Source: Nocardiopsis metallicus (GTDB taxonomy: Bacteria > Actinomycetota > Actinomycetes > Streptosporangiales > Streptosporangiaceae). Taken from it: 64,000 bases of DNA. A program made the translations under genes and the position numbers. Positions 6,088-51,485 of the stretch are shown here, piece by piece. The DNA lies in the NCBI RefSeq assembly GCF_014201115.1, contig NZ_JACHDO010000001.1, positions 620,001-684,000 of the forward strand, written 5' to 3'. The notes under the pieces are model-generated. The model was not told where the DNA came from, searched no databases, and saw only the letters and a program-made list of their open reading frames with translations. Position 1 is the first letter of the stretch, and every line of letters starts with the position of its first letter.

Positions 6088-6882
6088 TCAGGCGAGGAAC
6101 CCCCGGATGAGGGCCTCGCTGCCCTCCAGGTGTTCGCGTACCGCGCGTACCGCGGCCTCGGTATTCGCGTCCCGGACCGCCTGGACCATCTCCCGGTGCT
6201 GGATGTTGCTGTGCTCCAGGTTGCGCACCAGCATGGGCATGGCGTCGAGCAGGTCGTTCACGCGCATCCGAACCTCGGTGAGGGATCGGGTGAGCGAGGC
6301 GGAACCGGTGAGTTCGGCCAGGGTCAGGTGCAGGACCGTGTCAAGACGCCGGTAGTCCGCCACCTCGGCCGCCTCCACCGCCGCCAGCCGCTCGGTGAGC
6401 AGTCGGTCCTGCTCAGGGGTGAGCTCCTTCTCGGCCAGCACCACGGCCGCGCCGGTCTCCAGCGCCCGGCGGTGGGTGAACAGGTCGTCGAGGTCGGTGC
6501 CGGTGTCCCGCAGGACCCGCTGGACCTCGCTCCGGCTCGGTTTGGGCCGTACGTACGTGACGAAGGTGCCGCCGAACCGTCCGCGCCTGGACTCCACGTA
6601 CCCGGCCTCCTGGAGGGCGCGCAGGGAGTCGCGGAGGATGACCCGGCTGACTCCGAGCCGCGCGGCGAGTTCGCGCTCGGCTGGAAAGCGCTCCCCGTGC
6701 CCGACCACGCCCAGCCTGATCGCGGACAGCAGTCGCTTCACCGTCTCCTCGAACGGGTTTCCGGTGCGCACGGCCCGGAACACGGCCTGGGCCGCGACCC
6801 CGGTCAGGTCGCCGTCCTCGGCTGGACCGGGCTCTCCGGTCGGACCCCTGTCCGCGGCCGGGTCGCTGTCCGAAAGGTGCAT
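6088..6882 (-). CDS. GntR-family (FadR subfamily) transcriptional regulator
   Basis: A 264-residue regulator. The winged helix-turn-helix lies at about residues 38-105 (GERFPAERELAARLGVSRVILRDSLRAL, reported here in outline), followed by the all-helical FCD effector domain. Acidic and His residues in the C domain (for example DTVLHLTLAE) are of the type that bind a metal or carboxylate ligand. ATG 6882 follows an AAAAGGAA ribosome site. It is divergent from the glutamine-synthetase-like/ALDH/SDR/PuuD operon and so is likely its repressor, responding to a polyamine-pathway metabolite (inference from context). Confidence 0.88.
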   Translation of the reverse strand: MHLSDSDPAADRGPTGEPGPAEDGDLTGVAAQAVFRAVRTGNPFEETVKRLLSAIRLGVVGHGERFPAERELAARLGVSRVILRDSLRALQEAGYVESRRGRFGGTFVTYVRPKPSRSEVQRVLRDTGTDLDDLFTHRRALETGAAVVLAEKELTPEQDRLLTERLAAVEAAEVADYRRLDTVLHLTLAELTGSASLTRSLTEVRMRVNDLLDAMPMLVRNLEHSNIQHREMVQAVRDANTEAAVRAVREHLEGSEALIRGFLA

Positions 6883-7040: not shown

Positions 7041-7544
7041 GTGCGAACGAACGGCAGCCTCCCCCCACTGTCGCTGGACCCACTCAGGATCGAGGCCGCC
7101 TCCGGCGAGATCGACACCGTCCTGGTCGCCTTCACCGACATGGAGGGCCGACTCCAGGGCAAACGGCTCTCCGCCCGCTTCTTCCTGGAGGAGACCCTCG
7201 AACACGGCACGGAGGGGTGCGACTACCTCCTCGCAGTGGACGTGGACATGAACACCGTCGACGGCTACGCCATGTCCTCCTGGGAGACCGGCTACGGCGA
7301 CTTCGTCATGGCCCCGGACCTGTCCACCCTGCGGCGCACCCCCTGGGCGCGGGGCGCGGTCATGGTCACCGCCGACCTCACCTGGCACGACGGCAGCCCC
7401 GTCGCCGCCTCTCCCCGCCAGGTCCTGGACCACCAGCGCCGACGCCTGGCCGAACGCGGCTGGCACGCGTACGCGGGCACCGAACTCGAGTTCGTGGTCT
7501 ACCTGTCTTGTCCGAGAGTGCTCCGGAGCTCACGCCGGAGGTGA
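7041..7544 (+). pseudogene. 5' fragment of a gamma-glutamylpolyamine synthetase (glutamine-synthetase-like), interrupted by IS
   Basis: GTG 7041 follows an AAGGAG site and starts a glutamine-synthetase-fold protein: a beta-grasp N domain (VAFTDMEGRLQGKRL), then the catalytic domain up to GTELEFVVY at about residue 154 (base 7502). The next bases belong to the insertion element, and the frame stops at 7544. The C-terminal half resumes in the same frame at 9390. Comparing the two halves with the usual family layout, about 75-85 residues of the early catalytic domain are missing in addition to the insertion. The neighbours ALDH and PuuD point to an ancestral role in glutamylating putrescine or another polyamine. 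Confidence 0.85.
7521..7540. repeat. Left-end subterminal hairpin of the IS605-type element
   Basis: A perfect 6-bp stem CTCCGG/CCGGAG with an 8-nt loop, 18 bases inside the presumed left border. Imperfect palindromes of this kind are recognised as single-stranded hairpins by Y1 transposases. Confidence 0.65.
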
Positions 7545-7570
7545 ATCGGATCCGAACCCGCGCCCGCCCG

Positions 7571-7999
7571 TCAGGACGGGTGTTTCTGGTCCTCGATGTA
7601 CTGCTGAAGGACGCTGGTCGGCGCGCCTCCGACCGATCCGGCGAAGTAGGACCCCGACCACAACCGGCCACCCCACAGGTACTGGTTCACGTGCGTGCCG
7701 TACTCCTTGCGCAGCAGCCGGGAGGAGACCCCTTTGAGGCTGTTGACCAGCTTGGACAGCTGCACCTTGGGCGGGTAGCGCACCAGCAGGTGGACGTGGT
7801 CGTCCTCGCCGTCGAACTCGCCCAGCTCGGCCTCGAAGTCCGCGCACACCTGCCGCATGATCTCCTCACACCGGACAAGCATGGCCTCAGTGAGGGCGCC
7901 ACGCCGATACTTCGTGACGAACACCAAATGGACATGAAGGCGGCAAACGACGTGTCGTCCGGTGCGCACATCGGGGTTTGGTTCCCATCGCGGTGACAT
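7571..7999 (-). CDS. tnpA: IS200/IS605-family transposase TnpA (Y1 HUH nuclease)
   Basis: A 142-residue single-domain HUH transposase of full family length. The histidine pair is at residues 68 and 70 (DDHVHLLV) and the catalytic tyrosine at 134 (VLQQYIEDQ). An N-terminal HVHLVFVTKYR strand and a YLWGGRLWSGSYF segment are typical. It cuts and rejoins single-stranded element ends during peel-and-paste transposition. It reads outward to the left, divergent from tnpB with only 14 bp between the starts, so the two must share a very compact promoter region. All catalytic residues are present, so the protein looks active. Confidence 0.92.
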   Translation of the reverse strand: MSPRWEPNPDVRTGRHVVCRLHVHLVFVTKYRRGALTEAMLVRCEEIMRQVCADFEAELGEFDGEDDHVHLLVRYPPKVQLSKLVNSLKGVSSRLLRKEYGTHVNQYLWGGRLWSGSYFAGSVGGAPTSVLQQYIEDQKHPS

Positions 8000-8013
8000 A
8001 AACCAATGCTACG

Positions 8014-9348
8014 GTGATGGGTGTGAGCACCAACGCCACCCCCAAGCGGCACACCGGGCACCGCGCCCGGCTCGCCCTGTCGCCTGAACAGGTGTCGGTG
8101 CTCGATGACCAGGCACACGCCGCCCGCACCCTGTGGAACCTCTTGCACGCCTGGTGGACCATGGCCAGCGAGAACCGGCGGGTGGATCTGAAGGACGCCG
8201 ACGCCGCGATCAAGCAGGCCCGCAAGGAGATCGGCTTCCTCAAGGCCCTGCCCGCCCAGGCCGCTCAGGCGGTGCTCAAGACCTACTTCCAGGCGTGGCG
8301 CAACTGCTGGGACAGACGGGCGGAAGAGCCGACGTTCAAGTCCCGCCTCCGCTCACAGATGGTGGTGGACATCCCCCAGGGCCGGGACCTGCACCTACAG
8401 CGGGTGCACCGCCGGTGGGGGATGGTGAACATCCCCAAGCTGGGGCGGGTCCGCTTCCGCTGGACCAAGGACCTGCCGGTGGGCAAACGCGCCAACAAGG
8501 AGAACCGGGTCACCGGGGCGCGGCTGGTCAAGGACGCCCTCGGGTGGCACATCAGCTTCCGCGTCCAGACCCTGGAACCGGTTCCCGAATCCCACCCCGG
8601 CCCCGAGGTGGGTATCGACGCCGGGATCGCGGTCCCCCTCGCTCTGTCCGACGGAACGACGTATGACCACCACCGCCCCCGCACCAATGAGGACGGTGGC
8701 CGCGCGGACCGCGACAAGTGGCTCAACCAGAGCGAGAAACAGAAACTGGCCAGCTTGGAGAAGCAGGCCGCCCACCAAAGAAGTTTCCGTGCACGCGGGG
8801 AGAGGATCTCCCATCGTCTGGTGCGGACCTACGACCAGATCAAGGCGCTCCGCGCAAAAGCCACGCGCAGGCACCTGGACTGGCAGCACAAAACCACCAC
8901 TGACATCGCCACCCGGTACGGCACCGTCGTGGTAGAGGCACTGGACATCACGAACATGGTCCGCTCCGCGCGCGGCACCATCGAACAGCCCGGGAAGAAC
9001 GTGGCTCAGAAGGCGGGGTTGAACCGGGCCATCGGCCAGGAGGCATGGGGGCGCACCGTCACCCTGCTGGGCTACAAGCTCGCCCAGCGCGGCGGAACCC
9101 TGTACAAGGTCCCGGCGCCGGGCACCTCGCAGCGGTGCTCGGAGTGCTTGGAGACCATCTCTGGGAGTCGGGGGTCCCAGGCCGTGTTCGTGTGCAAGAA
9201 CCCCGCGTGCGGCTGGTCGGGTAACGCCGACCACAACGCCGCGCGCAACGTTCTTCACCTGTTTCGGGCGGGCCACGTGCTCGTCCCGGCTGCCGGGAGG
9301 GCAGTCGGCAGGCGCGCTGGTCGCGTCAAGCCCGCCACCGCGAGGTAG
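8014..9348 (+). CDS. tnpB: TnpB RNA-guided endonuclease (IS605 OrfB, RuvC-like)
   Basis: A 444-residue TnpB with an intact RuvC site: Asp202 (VGIDAG), Glu308 (VVVEALD) and Asp406 (GNADHNAARN). A CxxC...CxxxxC zinc ribbon lies between the last two (Cys375, 378, 394, 399). A GTG at 8014, ATG at 8017 or GTG at 8023 could each start it. Known TnpBs are guided by an omega-RNA from the element's right end and cut DNA lacking the element, helping it persist. Here the 3' end of the gene lies about 40 bp from the element's right tip, so the omega-RNA would overlap the tnpB tail and extend into host sequence from 9390. Confidence 0.92.
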   Translation: MMGVSTNATPKRHTGHRARLALSPEQVSVLDDQAHAARTLWNLLHAWWTMASENRRVDLKDADAAIKQARKEIGFLKALPAQAAQAVLKTYFQAWRNCWDRRAEEPTFKSRLRSQMVVDIPQGRDLHLQRVHRRWGMVNIPKLGRVRFRWTKDLPVGKRANKENRVTGARLVKDALGWHISFRVQTLEPVPESHPGPEVGIDAGIAVPLALSDGTTYDHHRPRTNEDGGRADRDKWLNQSEKQKLASLEKQAAHQRSFRARGERISHRLVRTYDQIKALRAKATRRHLDWQHKTTTDIATRYGTVVVEALDITNMVRSARGTIEQPGKNVAQKAGLNRAIGQEAWGRTVTLLGYKLAQRGGTLYKVPAPGTSQRCSECLETISGSRGSQAVFVCKNPACGWSGNADHNAARNVLHLFRAGHVLVPAAGRAVGRRAGRVKPATAR

Positions 9349-9410
9349 GGGGAATCTCCCGGAACGCTTCAACCGGGAGAGCACTTCAAAAGAACGGCGC
9401 CAAGGAGATC
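9230..9410 (+). ncRNA. Predicted omega-RNA of TnpB (position inferred)
   Basis: In IS605-type elements the omega-RNA comes from the tnpB 3' end plus the right-end hairpin, and its guide is the host sequence just past the right end. Here the scaffold would include the hairpin 9356-9379 and the guide would begin at 9390 (AAGAACGGCGCCAAGG). The 5' limit given is a rough guess; only the hairpin and the element/host junction are seen directly. Confidence 0.35.
9355..9380. repeat. Right-end subterminal hairpin of the IS605-type element
   Basis: A perfect 8-bp stem, TCTCCCGG with CCGGGAGA, around a 10-nt loop. The tetranucleotide GAAT touches its 5' foot, and TCAA lies 6 bases past its 3' foot, immediately before the host sequence resumes. 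Confidence 0.7.
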
Positions 9411-10052
9411 GCCGCCCAGGAGGGCATGTCGCTCACCTTCATGGCCAAACCCAACGACCGCGAGGGCAACTCCTGCCACATCCACCTCTCACTGCGCGAC
9501 GACGACGGCGTCCCGGTCATGGCCCAGGGGCAGGGGCAGGGGCTTTCGGAGACCGGTCGCCACTTCCTCGGCGGTCAGTTGGCCGCGCTGCGCGAGTTCA
9601 CCCTGCTGCTCGCGCCCAACATCAGCTCCTACAAGCGCTTCGTCCCGGGCAGCTTCGCTCCCACCACCGTCGCCTGGGGCCACGACAACCACACCTGCGC
9701 GCTGCGGGTGGTCGGCCACGGGTCCTCACTGCGGGTGGAGAACCGGGTCCCCGGCGGCGACGTGAACCCCTACCTGGCCAGCGCCGCCATCGTCGCGGCC
9801 GGACTGCACGGGGTCGAGCACGGCATCGAACCGGGCGAGCCGCTCACCGGCAACGCCTACACCTCGGGTCTGCGCACCGTCCCCACCACCCTGCGCGAGG
9901 CCCTGCAGCTGTGGGAGGGCAGCGCGCTGGCCCGTGAGGCCTTCGGTGAGGAGGTCGTCGCCCACTACGCCAACCGCGCCCGCGTCGAACTCGCCGCCTT
10001 CGACGCCGCCGTCACCGACTGGGAGATGTTCCGCGGCTTCGAACGGATGTAA
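9390..10052 (+). pseudogene. 3' fragment of the glutamine-synthetase-like ligase gene
   Basis: The host frame resumes with KNGAKEIAAQEG, then LTFMAKPN and SCHIHLSL, the ATP/metal-binding core of glutamine synthetases, and continues to the normal C terminus at 10052 (TAA). The catalytic-domain His and Arg residues (HIHLSL, YKRFVPGS, NRVPGG) are intact here, but the acidic metal-binding residues that lie before KNGAKE in the family are gone. An internal ATG at 9426 could yield a 208-residue fragment, unlikely to be active. Codon boundaries match across the element (7502/9390), so excision would give an in-frame but internally deleted protein. Confidence 0.85.
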
Positions 10053-10081: not shown

Positions 10082-11500
10082 GTGAACACTGACGAGAGCA
10101 CACCGCCCAAACGGTCACGACGGTCCGAACCATACGAGCAGCGCGAACAGAAGGTGGTCGACCCGGCCAGCGGGGAGGTGGTGGCCACCGTCCCCCTGGC
10201 CTCCGAGGCCGAGACCGACGCCGCCGTCGCCCGCGCCGCCGCGGCCTTCCCCGCCTGGCGGGACACCCCGCCGGGCGAACGCGCCCGCCTGCTGCGCGCC
10301 GTGGCCGACCGCATCGACGCCCACACCGAGGAACTCGCCCAGCTGGAGGTCGCCAACGCCGGACACCCCGTCGGCCAGGCCCGCTGGGAGGCTGGTAACG
10401 CCAGGGACGTGTTCACCTACTTCTCGGCCGCACCCGAACGCGCTACCGGACGGCAGATCCCCGTTCCCGGCGGCTGGAGCGTCACCTTCGCCGACCCCCT
10501 CGGCGTGGTCGGCGTCATCGTCCCCTGGAACTTCCCGATGCCGGTCCTGTCCTGGGGCACCGCGCCAGCCCTGGCCGCGGGCAACACCGTCATCGTCAAA
10601 CCCGCCGAACTCACCCCGCTCACCGCCCTGCGCATCGGTGAACTCGCCCGCGAGGCGGGCCTGCCCGACGGTGTCCTGCAGATCCTGCCCGGCGCCGGAC
10701 CGGTGGCCGGAGCACGCCTGGTCCGCCACCCCGACGTCGCCAAGATCGTCTTCACCGGCTCCACCCGGGTGGGCAAGGGCATCATGGCGGCCGCCGCCGA
10801 GGACCTCACCCGCCTCACCCTCGAGCTCGGCGGCAAGAGCGCCAACATCGTCTTCGCCGACGCCGACCTGGACAAGGCCGCGGCCGCCGCGCCGATGGCC
10901 GCTTTCGACAACGCCGGACAGGACTGCTGCGCCCGCTCCCGCCTGCTCGTCCAGGCCGACGTGTACGAGCGCTTCCTGGAACTGCTGCGCCCGGCGGTGG
11001 AGGGGATCACCGTCGGCGACCCCCGCGACCCCGGCACCGGGATGGGTCCGCTGATCAGCGCCGCCCAGCGCGACCGCGTCGCCGCCTACGTGGATGGCGC
11101 CACCGTCCTCTTCCAGGGGAGTGCGCCCCGGGGGCCCGGTTTCTGGTTCCCGCCCACCGTGCTCGCCACCCACGACCCGGCCGAACCCGCCTTCCGCGAG
11201 GAGATCTTCGGCCCGGTCCTGTCCGTACTGCCCTTCGAGACCGAGGCCGACGCGGTGCGCATCGCCAACGACACCGCGTTCGGGCTGGCCGGATCGGTGT
11301 GGACCCGCGACGTCGGTCGGGCCCTGAGGGTCTCCCGGGCCGTCCGCGCCGGGAACCTGTCGGTGAACTCGCACTCGGCCGTGCGCTACTGGACGCCCTT
11401 CGGCGGCATGGGCCAGTCGGGTCTGGGCCGCGAACTGGGCCCGGACGCCCTGGACGCCTTCACCGAGACCAGGACCGTCTTCCTCTCCGACGACACCTGA
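10082..11500 (+). CDS. NAD(P)-dependent aldehyde dehydrogenase (PuuC-like)
   Basis: A 472-residue ALDH-superfamily enzyme. Visible motifs are PWNFP (Asn150), Lys173 in VKPAELTP, FTGSTRVGKG for cofactor binding, catalytic Glu248 in LELGGKS and nucleophile Cys282 in GQDCCA. The GTG start follows AGGAGGGG. It lies 29 bp after the broken ligase gene and 29 bp before an SDR, so the genes form one operon. In the gamma-glutamyl polyamine pathway such an enzyme oxidises gamma-glutamylaminobutyraldehyde to gamma-glutamyl-GABA; this role is inferred from the neighbouring PuuD. The element upstream may be polar on it unless a promoter within the element or fragment supplies transcription. Confidence 0.88.
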   Translation: MNTDESTPPKRSRRSEPYEQREQKVVDPASGEVVATVPLASEAETDAAVARAAAAFPAWRDTPPGERARLLRAVADRIDAHTEELAQLEVANAGHPVGQARWEAGNARDVFTYFSAAPERATGRQIPVPGGWSVTFADPLGVVGVIVPWNFPMPVLSWGTAPALAAGNTVIVKPAELTPLTALRIGELAREAGLPDGVLQILPGAGPVAGARLVRHPDVAKIVFTGSTRVGKGIMAAAAEDLTRLTLELGGKSANIVFADADLDKAAAAAPMAAFDNAGQDCCARSRLLVQADVYERFLELLRPAVEGITVGDPRDPGTGMGPLISAAQRDRVAAYVDGATVLFQGSAPRGPGFWFPPTVLATHDPAEPAFREEIFGPVLSVLPFETEADAVRIANDTAFGLAGSVWTRDVGRALRVSRAVRAGNLSVNSHSAVRYWTPFGGMGQSGLGRELGPDALDAFTETRTVFLSDDT

Positions 11501-11529
11501 CCGCCCCACCCCTGAGCTGGAGGAACACC

Positions 11530-12294
11530 ATGCAGCGATTCCAGGACCGCGTCGCCGTCATCACCGGGGCGGCGGGCGGTATCGGCCGCGCCACCGCGCT
11601 CCGCCTCTCGGAGGAGGGCGCCACCGTCATCGCCGTCGACCTCGACGAGGAGGGCGGCGGGAGCGTGGCCGAGGCCACCGGCGGCGCCTTCATCCGCGCC
11701 GACGTCACCGACGAAGCCGCGGTCGAAGCCCTCTTCGCCCGGGTCAGGGGCGAGTACGGCAGCGTGGACGCGGCTTTCAACAACGCCGGGATCTCACCGC
11801 CCGACGACGACTCCATCCTCACCACCAGCCTCGACACCTGGCGGCGGGTCCAGGAGGTCAACCTGACCTCCGTCTACCTTTGCTGCAAGTACGCCCTGCC
11901 GCACATGCGCGCACAGGGCAAGGGGGCGATCGTCAACACCGCGTCGTTCGTCGCCACCATGGGTGCCGCCACATCCCAGGTGTCCTACACCGCCAGCAAG
12001 GGCGGGGTACTCGCGCTCAGCCGCGAACTGGGCGTGCAGTTCGCCCGCGAGGGCATCCGGGTGAACGCGCTCTCTCCTGGGCCGGTGGACACACCCCTGC
12101 TGCGGGAACTGTTCGCCAAGGACCCCGAACGAGCCGCCCGCCGCCTGGTCCACGTCCCGCTGGGCCGTTTCGCCGAGGCCACCGAGATCGCCGCCGCGGT
12201 GGCCTTCCTGGCCAGCGACGACGCCTCGTTCGTCACGGCGTCCAACTTCCTCGTGGACGGCGGAATCTCCGGTGCCTACGTCACCCCGATCTAG
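11530..12294 (+). CDS. Short-chain dehydrogenase/reductase (classical SDR)
   Basis: A 254-residue classical SDR. It has the cofactor loop TGAAGGIG at residues 12-19, NNAG at 84-87, and a catalytic Ser139, Tyr153, Lys157 triad (SYTASKG). Asp37 at the end of the second strand favours NAD over NADP. ATG 11530 follows GGAGG. It sits in the polyamine operon between the aldehyde dehydrogenase and the PuuD hydrolase. Annotated relatives are often called 3-oxoacyl-ACP reductase, but nothing here supports fatty-acid synthesis; a role in processing an aldehyde or alcohol of the pathway is possible. Confidence 0.88.
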   Translation: MQRFQDRVAVITGAAGGIGRATALRLSEEGATVIAVDLDEEGGGSVAEATGGAFIRADVTDEAAVEALFARVRGEYGSVDAAFNNAGISPPDDDSILTTSLDTWRRVQEVNLTSVYLCCKYALPHMRAQGKGAIVNTASFVATMGAATSQVSYTASKGGVLALSRELGVQFAREGIRVNALSPGPVDTPLLRELFAKDPERAARRLVHVPLGRFAEATEIAAAVAFLASDDASFVTASNFLVDGGISGAYVTPI

Positions 12295-12350
12295 GTCCCT
12301 CCCTGCCCCGCCCCCAGACCCCGAACGAGAACCTGTTGGAGGCCGTTCAC

Positions 12351-13055
12351 ATGCCACCGGTCGTCGGCATCACCGCCTACGCGGAGCAGGCCCGCTGGGG
12401 CGAGGCCTGGGACCTGCCCGCCACCCTGCTGCCCCGGCACTACGCGGACTCGGTCGCCGCCACCGGCGCTGTGCCCCTCCTGCTGCCTCCGGTCGCCGGG
12501 GTCACCGGGGCGCTGGGCCGGCTGGACGGGCTGCTGCTGGCCGGGGGCGGTGACATCGACCCCGGCCGCTACGGCGCCCCGACCGGAACGCACACCGCCG
12601 GGGTCCAGGCGGGCCGCGACACCGCCGAGGTGGATCTGCTGGCCGGAGCGCTCGCCCGCGGCTTGCCGGTCCTGGGGGTGTGCCGGGGGATGCAGCTGCT
12701 CAACGTCTGCCGCGGCGGCACCCTCAACCAGCACCTGCCCGACGTGGTGGGCCACACCGGGCACCGCCAGCGCACCGGGATCTTCGACACCCACCCGGTC
12801 ACCGTCGCCGAGCACTCCCGCACCGCCCGGGTGCTGGGCCGCACCATGCTCGACGTACCCACCTACCACCACCAGTCCGTCGCCGACCTGGGCCGGAACG
12901 TCGCGGCCACCGCCTGGGCCGAGGACGGCACCATCGAGGCGATCGAGTACACCGACGTGTTCAACGTGCTCGGCGTGCAGTGGCATCCGGAGATGGGCAC
13001 CGATCCCGCCCTCTTCACCTGGCTCACCGAACGCGCCGCCGAAGGAGCCACCTGA
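12351..13055 (+). CDS. puuD: Gamma-glutamyl-gamma-aminobutyrate hydrolase (class I amidotransferase fold)
   Basis: A 234-residue peptidase C26 / GATase1-like hydrolase. The nucleophile is Cys111 in GVCRGMQLLN and the His212/Glu214 pair is in QWHPE. The LLAGGGDIDP motif near residue 62 and the YHHQSV segment are typical of PuuD-type enzymes, which release GABA (or a related amine acid) from its gamma-glutamyl conjugate. ATG 12351 is preceded by GGAGG. It is the last gene of the polyamine operon. No PuuB-type amine oxidase is present nearby, so that step must be encoded elsewhere. Confidence 0.87.
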   Translation: MPPVVGITAYAEQARWGEAWDLPATLLPRHYADSVAATGAVPLLLPPVAGVTGALGRLDGLLLAGGGDIDPGRYGAPTGTHTAGVQAGRDTAEVDLLAGALARGLPVLGVCRGMQLLNVCRGGTLNQHLPDVVGHTGHRQRTGIFDTHPVTVAEHSRTARVLGRTMLDVPTYHHQSVADLGRNVAATAWAEDGTIEAIEYTDVFNVLGVQWHPEMGTDPALFTWLTERAAEGAT

Positions 13056-17091: not shown

Positions 17092-17165
17092 CGGGACGTA
17101 GCGCAGTTTGGCAGCGCACTTGACTGGGGGTCAAGGGGTCGTGGGTTCAAATCCCGCCGTCCCGA
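17092..17165 (+). tRNA. tRNA-Pro (anticodon GGG)
   Basis: A complete 74-nt cloverleaf. The acceptor stem is CGGGACG (17092-17098) with CGTCCCG (17158-17164) and discriminator A. The D arm is GCGC/GCGC, the anticodon stem is CTTGA/TCAAG around the loop CTGGGGG (anticodon GGG), and the T arm is GTGGG-TTCAAAT-CCCGC. CCA is not encoded. A strong hairpin follows 12 bases later. Confidence 0.95.
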
Positions 17166-17176
17166 CAGAGCAGTAG

Positions 17177-50676: not shown

Positions 50677-51485
50677 CCGCCGGTACCGCCCTCCTGCTCA
50701 ACCTCGGGGTCACCGCCGCCGTGATCGGTGCGCTCATGCTCGCCACCTTCGCCATCGGGGTGCGCCTGGGACGCCACAGTGTCGTGGACGTCGCCTGGGG
50801 GCTGGGCTTCGTGGCGGCCGCGCTGGCCACCGCTGCCGTCGCCACCGCCACCGGGTTCGGCGATCCGGTCCGGAACTGGCTGCTGTGCGGGCTCACCGCG
50901 GTGTGGGGGCTGCGGCTGGCCATCCACATCGGCCTGCGCGGTCGGGGCAAGGGCGAGGACCCCCGCTACGAGCGCTTCCTGGCCAACGCCCCCGGAAACC
51001 CGAACCTGTACGCCCTGCGGGTGGTCTACCTGCTCCAGGGCTCCCTGGTCTGGTTGATCTCGCTCCCCGTCCAGGTGGCCGCCTTCACCGCCGGGCCGCT
51101 GGGATGGGTGGCCTTCCTCGGCGCGCTGGTCTGGCTGGTCGGCATGGTCTTCGAGACCGTCGGCGACGCCCAGCTCGCCCGGTTCAAGGCCGACCCCGCC
51201 AATAGGGAAAAGATCATGGACCGGGGGCTGTGGGCCTGGACCCGGCACCCGAACTACTTCGGTGACGCGTGCGTGTGGTGGGGCCTCTTCCTGGTCGCCG
51301 CCGGTTCCTGGTGGGTCCTGCTCACCCTGCCCGCGCCGTTGGTGATGACCTACCTGCTCACCCGGGGCTCGGGCCAGCGGCTGCTGGACGAGCACATGTC
51401 GAACCGTCCCGGCTGGTCCGAGTACGCGGCCCGGACCAGCGCGTTCTTCCCGCTTCCCCCGAGGAAGGCCGTTCCGGGAACGTAG
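50673..51485 (+). CDS. DUF1295-family membrane protein (steroid-reductase/ICMT fold, Rv0446c-like)
   Basis: A 270-residue membrane protein with about seven helices. The DUF1295 signature is clear: SVVDVAWGLGFV, GKGEDPRYERFL, then DRGLWAWTRHPNYFGDACVWWGLFL and a C-terminal GWSEYAARTSAFFPLPPRK. The RHPNYFG motif binds NADPH in reductases of this fold. It could reduce a double bond in the lipid made by the upstream enzymes (inference). Last gene of the operon, coupled by ATGA. No sigma or anti-sigma gene follows, unlike in M. tuberculosis. Confidence 0.87.
   Translation: MTAGTALLLNLGVTAAVIGALMLATFAIGVRLGRHSVVDVAWGLGFVAAALATAAVATATGFGDPVRNWLLCGLTAVWGLRLAIHIGLRGRGKGEDPRYERFLANAPGNPNLYALRVVYLLQGSLVWLISLPVQVAAFTAGPLGWVAFLGALVWLVGMVFETVGDAQLARFKADPANREKIMDRGLWAWTRHPNYFGDACVWWGLFLVAAGSWWVLLTLPAPLVMTYLLTRGSGQRLLDEHMSNRPGWSEYAARTSAFFPLPPRKAVPGT

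Follow-up and report, generated by a model that had tools for sequence, protein, structure and literature searches.

A deletion between target motifs beside an IS200/IS605-type element in a glutamine-synthetase-like gene of Nocardiopsis metallicus

Insertion sequences of the IS200/IS605 family are usually described as movers that insert without duplication or loss of target DNA. IS608 of Helicobacter pylori and ISDra2 of Deinococcus share a Y1 HUH transposase (TnpA), a TnpB protein and subterminal hairpins, and insert without duplication 3' of a motif of 4-5 nucleotides (nt), TTAC or TTGAT (accessible parts of PMC5934647 and PMC8612924). In IS608, recognition of the left flank at excision and of the target at insertion falls to a guide sequence within the left end and not to the protein (accessible part of PMC5934647). 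Loss of target-adjacent DNA is not described for either element in those parts of the two papers. Here we describe a relative of these elements, 1887 bp long, in a 64,000-nt stretch of Nocardiopsis metallicus DNA (‘the window’; assembly GCF_014201115.1, contig NZ_JACHDO010000001.1, positions 620,001 to 684,000 of the forward strand; genome of 7.78 Mb on two contigs). It targets CTAC (mostly TCTAC) in place of the motifs above, it divides a glutamine-synthetase (GS)-like gene, and at its site 246 bp of that gene are missing, bounded in the nearest intact ortholog by the element's own target motif.

The gene is present as a 5' half of 154 codons with a GTG start (7041-7502, plus strand) and a 3' half of 220 codons plus stop (9390-10052, plus strand), the latter scoring above the PF00120 cut-off in a profile search from profile position 121 onwards. 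An earlier interpretation drawn from the letters alone (hereafter the sequence-only reading) had set these halves on either side of the element in one codon phase, with borders at 7502 and 9390, and both phase and borders were confirmed. The shared phase is unsurprising, because all 14 CTAC listed for the gene of the nearest intact ortholog, L005, lie in one phase, and on this ground the in-frame fusion was rejected as a meaningful feature. A search of 39 other genomes of the genus returned close orthologs in 12, stop-free and with 79-96% identity across the 220 residues that the 3' half encodes, the remainder having only more distant GS genes or none. In all 12 of these element-free orthologs exactly 246 bp (82 codons) lie between the codons that adjoin the element in the window, in line with the 75-85 residues that the sequence-only reading had judged absent between ELEFVVY and KNGAKE. 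That reading had named two findings that would count against it; in the event no element-free ortholog lacks the segment, nor was the segment found elsewhere in the window genome, where the sole match is 33 bases at 86%, and its relocation was rejected on that basis. Against the nearest ortholog (L005, genome G010), which aligns with solved GS-type structures over nearly its whole length, DNA identity is 94% for the 5' half and 93% for the 3' half, homology ending at 7502/7503 and resuming at 9390. The 82 lost residues run from RDTYEQ to HSVY and include ESAKGE and GQHE, stretches that align with glutamine synthetases of known structure and that presumably bear metal-binding glutamates, as we take such stretches to do across the GS family. 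The sequence-only reading had placed acidic metal ligands in the missing part. By sequence comparison the gene is broken both by the insert and by the loss; with 246 bp gone, removal of the element would not be enough to repair it.

The motif CTAC stands at the left end in 28 of the 31 copies of the element with both ends defined (exceptions L090, L104 and L189), reading TCTAC in 19 of the 28; in 27 of them its last base lies within 0-3 bases of the aligned left end, and in L203, where it lay 9 bases off, the end was set onto CTAC. The element therefore inserts 3' of CTAC. The motif was rejected as part of the element itself, since in relatives it is present where no element stands and also where the lost segments end. 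In the window the left flank ends in GTCTAC (site 1, 7497-7502, plus strand); L005 continues from there for 246 bp, up to and including another GTCTAC (site 2), after which comes the sequence of the 3' half. The L005 gene has no GTCTAC besides these two, which lie 246 bp apart and mark both ends of the lost segment. The element joins the site 1 flank to the sequence that follows site 2. As the segment lost relative to L005 is bounded by GTCTAC, which contains CTAC, both breakpoints coincide with the element's own target motif. The sequence-only reading had proposed an element-adjacent deletion ending near matching GT-rich/TAC codons, and its end can now be refined to a run from GTCTAC to GTCTAC. 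Site 1 ends in CTAC in 11 of the 12 orthologs and site 2 in seven; in L013, second in identity, the two sites read GTCTAC and ATCTAC. It is conceivable that a 246-bp in-frame deletion came first and that the one GTCTAC remaining at its junction was later taken as target by the element, for such a loss would leave an open frame and its junction is a valid target; as the deletion is absent from all 12 element-free orthologs and the same coincidence would be required at three further loci (L104, L195 and L198, below), we consider this order of events very improbable. As a separate observation on the motif, L093 (G013) and L098 (G000:C1, left end near 1,552,794) belong to different element lineages and apparently occupy the same orthologous CTAC in two species. 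Their left flanks are nearly alike and, among the matches listed, the right flank of L093 is 85% similar at G000:1554303, a coincidence that suggests a favoured target.

Judged by its sequence, 7503-9389 is an IS200/IS605 insertion sequence in which transposase, TnpB, hairpins and target motif are all of the family type. It lies on the plus strand and appears complete: its ends were set at these positions because G010 has, at a different locus, a 90%-identical copy that covers all 1887 bases, and they match the ends of other copies. Within it, tnpA (7571-7999, minus strand) encodes a Y1 HUH transposase of 142 residues, with HVH at residue 68 and a candidate catalytic Tyr134 assigned by eye (PF01797, 3.6e-41; NF033573, 146.5 bits against a cut-off of 55). 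The second gene, tnpB (8014-9348, plus strand), encodes a 444-residue homolog of RNA-guided nucleases (NF040570, 196.8 bits against a cut-off of 100; PF07282 and PF01385 above cut-off), in which GIDAG, VVEAL and NADHNAARN were read by eye as RuvC-like motifs. Both frames are open and retain family motifs. Folding predicts a subterminal hairpin at each end, formed on the left by CTCCGG..CCGGAG (7521-7540, plus strand), whilst the right end (9352-9389, plus strand) has GAAT directly before its hairpin and TCAA at the tip. The same pair is found at the right end of IS608, where GAAT is the right guide sequence and TCAA the right cleavage sequence (accessible part of PMC5934647). There is no target duplication, the flanks of clean copies being contiguous in relatives. 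No known RNA family was found at the element at the Rfam threshold, which a single transfer RNA (tRNA) reached within the window. A close copy on a plasmid was sought in a ‘near’ mode search and rejected, the best full-length plasmid match being 75.8% identical. Six short elements of about 0.19 to 1.6 kb (L057, L059, L061, L062, L066 and L063) have the same left and right ends and otherwise match in part; they are perhaps tnpB-only or gene-free derivatives moved in trans.

Other copies were surveyed in 18 same-genus regions, of which 11 were dropped for one or both undefined ends, and in 40 order-level regions, of which 17 were dropped for want of a clear end. This left the 31 copies with both ends, 30 of which were compared with relatives, mostly as joined flanks (L208 was left out). 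The whole-genome searches scored few candidates per genome (7, 6, 19 or 2, depending on the search), and an unmatched flank is accordingly not to be read as absence; several flank comparisons rest on the matches listed, and the reference throughout is relatives, not true ancestors. The junction looks clean in 18 of the 30 (L090, L093, L095, L096, L102, L181, L182, L190, L191, L192, L193, L196, L197, L201, L204, L206, L207 and L210). Three of these are weakly supported: L181 has, among the matches listed, a single match that spans the joint and is 51 bp shorter in relatives, the gap being unplaced; L210 has 18 bp of left flank only; and in L206 about nine bases of native left context remain. 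A further three copies (L189, L199 and L200) could not be assigned. L102 (G038) and L206 (G117) were considered as cases of the pattern and rejected, as their deletions lie 36 and 12 bp, respectively, to the left of the element and the junctions themselves were counted as clean; L186 was likewise rejected as a tandem pair, its second tnpB being only 29% identical.

Four of the 30 copies have a deletion for which a relative shows both sites. In addition to the window (246 bp), these include L104, the 90%-identical copy in the sister species G010, which sits inside a major facilitator superfamily (MFS)-type transporter gene (named by eye) and has lost the 687 bp that in L162 and L163 run from one TTCTAC to another; the gap is seen also against six further relatives (L164-L169). 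In the same gene, transporter homology breaks off once more about 240 bp past the right end of the element, and the gene seems to have been broken a second time by something else. L195, which joins a glyoxalase-like gene to the end of an AzlD-like gene (names again by eye), has lost 1440 bp relative to L232, from ACCTAC to GCCTAC, or 1553 bp relative to L231, in which site 2 reads GCCTAT. L198 has lost 12 bp, from ATCTAC to CTTTAT in L216. Five more copies (L094, L188, L203, L211 and L215) look similar, one site being verified in L211 and L094. In L211 (G156) site 2 is GTCTAC in L223 and L224, about 190 bp shorter, and the left site falls in diverged intergenic DNA; among the matches listed, the pattern around this copy also suggests that roughly 1 kb more was lost some 115-125 bp to the right of the element. 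L094, which lies in the window genome, has a right flank that follows TTCTAC in L236 and a left flank apparently from another gene. The other three each have one flank unmatched in the relative regions read: for L203 site 2 is GTCTAC in L227 and GTTTAC in L226; for L188 it is TTCTAC in L225; L215 has a native left side (CTCTAT in L228), its right flank being the unmatched one. Altogether eight rearranged copies have a matched right flank, and for seven of them, all except L198, at least one relative has CTAC directly before it. None of the four measured losses exceeds about 1.55 kb.

Recombination between direct copies is the classical explanation of deletions beside insertion sequences, and homologous recombination between two copies, one at each CTAC, with deletion of one copy and of the DNA between, would yield exactly the site 1 flank, one element and the site 2 flank. 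A possible setting is genome G300, in which L188 and L198 are about 90% identical to each other and both have altered flanks; the likeness of this pair led us to raise our estimate for this explanation slightly. It would nevertheless require the element to have entered twice, at sites 12, 246 or 687 bp from each other (such pairs were not sought systematically). In the window genome the next best long copy is 69% identical, and G010 has one full-length copy only, in a copy search that scored two candidates per genome and is not a copy-number count. We regard recombination between two copies as unlikely.

We favour instead, with about as much confidence as doubt, the explanation that the transposase made the deletion by cutting at a second CTAC beyond the right end in place of its own flank. 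The left-end guide would pair not with the CTAC abutting the left end but with another, which lies on the same single strand downstream of the right end; TnpA would then cut between the right end and its flank and between CTAC and its flank, joining the right end to the new flank. The intervening segment would be released as a circle, so that the element would stay and the adjacent DNA be lost. In a mirror version the left end would be re-joined to an upstream CTAC, giving the same product and indistinguishable here. These elements act on the lagging strand (accessible part of PMC8612924), and losses of up to about 1.55 kb would fit one single-stranded stretch of it.

The repeats at the breakpoints also invite a reading in terms of short-homology repair or slippage, in which a clean insertion at one CTAC was followed by a break or slip that annealed the flanking GTCTAC to the copy 246 bp off. 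The trigger was possibly TnpB, whose frame is open and has its family motifs, cutting the empty sister site, or else TnpA nicking its own end. Repeats of 6 nt do flank the window and L104 events, and repeat-mediated deletion, with repeats usually under 20 bp, is reported from another IS605-rich genome (accessible part of PMC3119063). Beyond the preferred YCTAC target, however, the sharing amounts to one base in the window and L104 and to none in L195 when compared with L232. In the relatives of L104 and L195, moreover, longer repeats of 7 nt lie nearer to site 2 and were left unused, which disfavours plain slippage between the longest nearby repeats. That losses recur at several loci with a border exactly at the left end also calls for something at the element to set them off. 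On balance, short-homology repair seems to us rather unlikely.

Several points weigh against deletion by the transposase, whose role here is our inference. For the window event, the L005 gene offers no 6-nt match other than the pair used, an outcome that slippage predicts as well; site 2 is GTGTAC in five of the 12 orthologs, the ancestral hexamer being taken from the nearest one. Of the further cases, L195 has a relative (L233) that is less easily reconciled with it, leaving 230 bases at the start of the right flank unmatched, L198 depends on one relative at 73-78% identity in which site 2 is CTTTAT, and the five additional copies each have one side unverified, L188 carrying about 935 bp of other DNA on its left. 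The deletions at L102 and L206, beside the element and not at it, are unexplained by the transposase model. The size range is biased, short losses being easier to detect than long ones, and with 18 of 30 copies apparently clean, deletion is evidently not obligatory.

Deletions next to elements of the Tn3, IS6, IS21 and IS30 types likewise start exactly at an element end and end at a target site (accessible part of PMC9330008). The present case differs from these in having a single-strand Y1 transposase and a fixed motif of 4-5 nt at both ends of the deletion. Tn3, IS6, IS21 and IS30-type elements belong to other transposase types. No report of deletion from target motif to target motif by an IS200/IS605 element was found in the open-access literature, as far as its text was accessible. 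Whilst the element, its family and the type of gene are already known, the recurring motif-to-motif deletion is, as far as searched in that literature, apparently undescribed for IS200/IS605.

For the host, the substrate of the broken gene determines the consequence. The intact ortholog L005 falls short of every NCBIfam equivalog cut-off (NF045547, gamma-glutamylputrescine synthetase: 213.5 bits where 650 are required), and for that reason the ligase substrate is unproven; the gene is best called GS-type and gamma-glutamylamine-ligase-like, with putative activity on putrescine or spermine. Downstream lie, as further members of a putative operon or beside it, genes for an aldehyde dehydrogenase (PF00171, the next gene of the putative operon; 10082-11500, plus strand), a short-chain dehydrogenase (11509-12294, plus strand) and a Peptidase C26/PuuD-like hydrolase (12348-13055, plus strand); a GntR/FCD regulator is encoded divergently (6088-6882, minus strand). 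All three downstream frames are open, and the hydrolase scores below the PuuD equivalog cut-off. An aldehyde dehydrogenase and a C26 hydrolase beside a GS-type ligase are what we would expect of a gamma-glutamylation route. The window genome keeps two other GS genes, one glnA and the other about 14 kb from it, the latter tentatively taken by us as glnA2-like from position and length. The claim that the gamma-glutamyl polyamine operon had lost its first step was consequently too strong, given a putative substrate and these two other genes; the sequence-only reading is partly supported as an interpretation, its observation being confirmed. In Streptomyces coelicolor, GlnA2 and GlnA3 (gamma-glutamylpolyamine) and GlnA4 (gamma-glutamylethanolamide) are also GS-type ligases, GlnA2 being a second gamma-glutamylpolyamine synthetase (accessible parts of PMC8998196, PMC5403932 and PMC6529630; GlnA2 from PMC8998196). 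Unlike these, the gene in the window is a pseudogene whose intact ortholog scores below the equivalog cut-offs. Elsewhere in the window are tRNA-Pro (ggg) at 17092-17166, across which the listed open reading frames are probably artefacts, and tRNA-Arg (tcg) at 51118-51203.

More tentatively, and with somewhat less than even confidence, we suggest that IS200/IS605 elements are guided deletion makers, in which the left-end DNA guide may pick any reachable motif beyond the right end and host DNA is excised from motif to motif, with the element left in place. If this is true, a good share of insertions (4 to 9 of 30 here) would delete DNA in this manner, these elements would shape genomes more than thought, and flank comparisons that presume simple insertion would misread them. 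Mis-excision would be a testable property of one of the simplest transposases, and relevant to those who engineer guided integration of the IS608 type. In the window genome itself, a catabolic gene is dead beyond repair by excision of the element.

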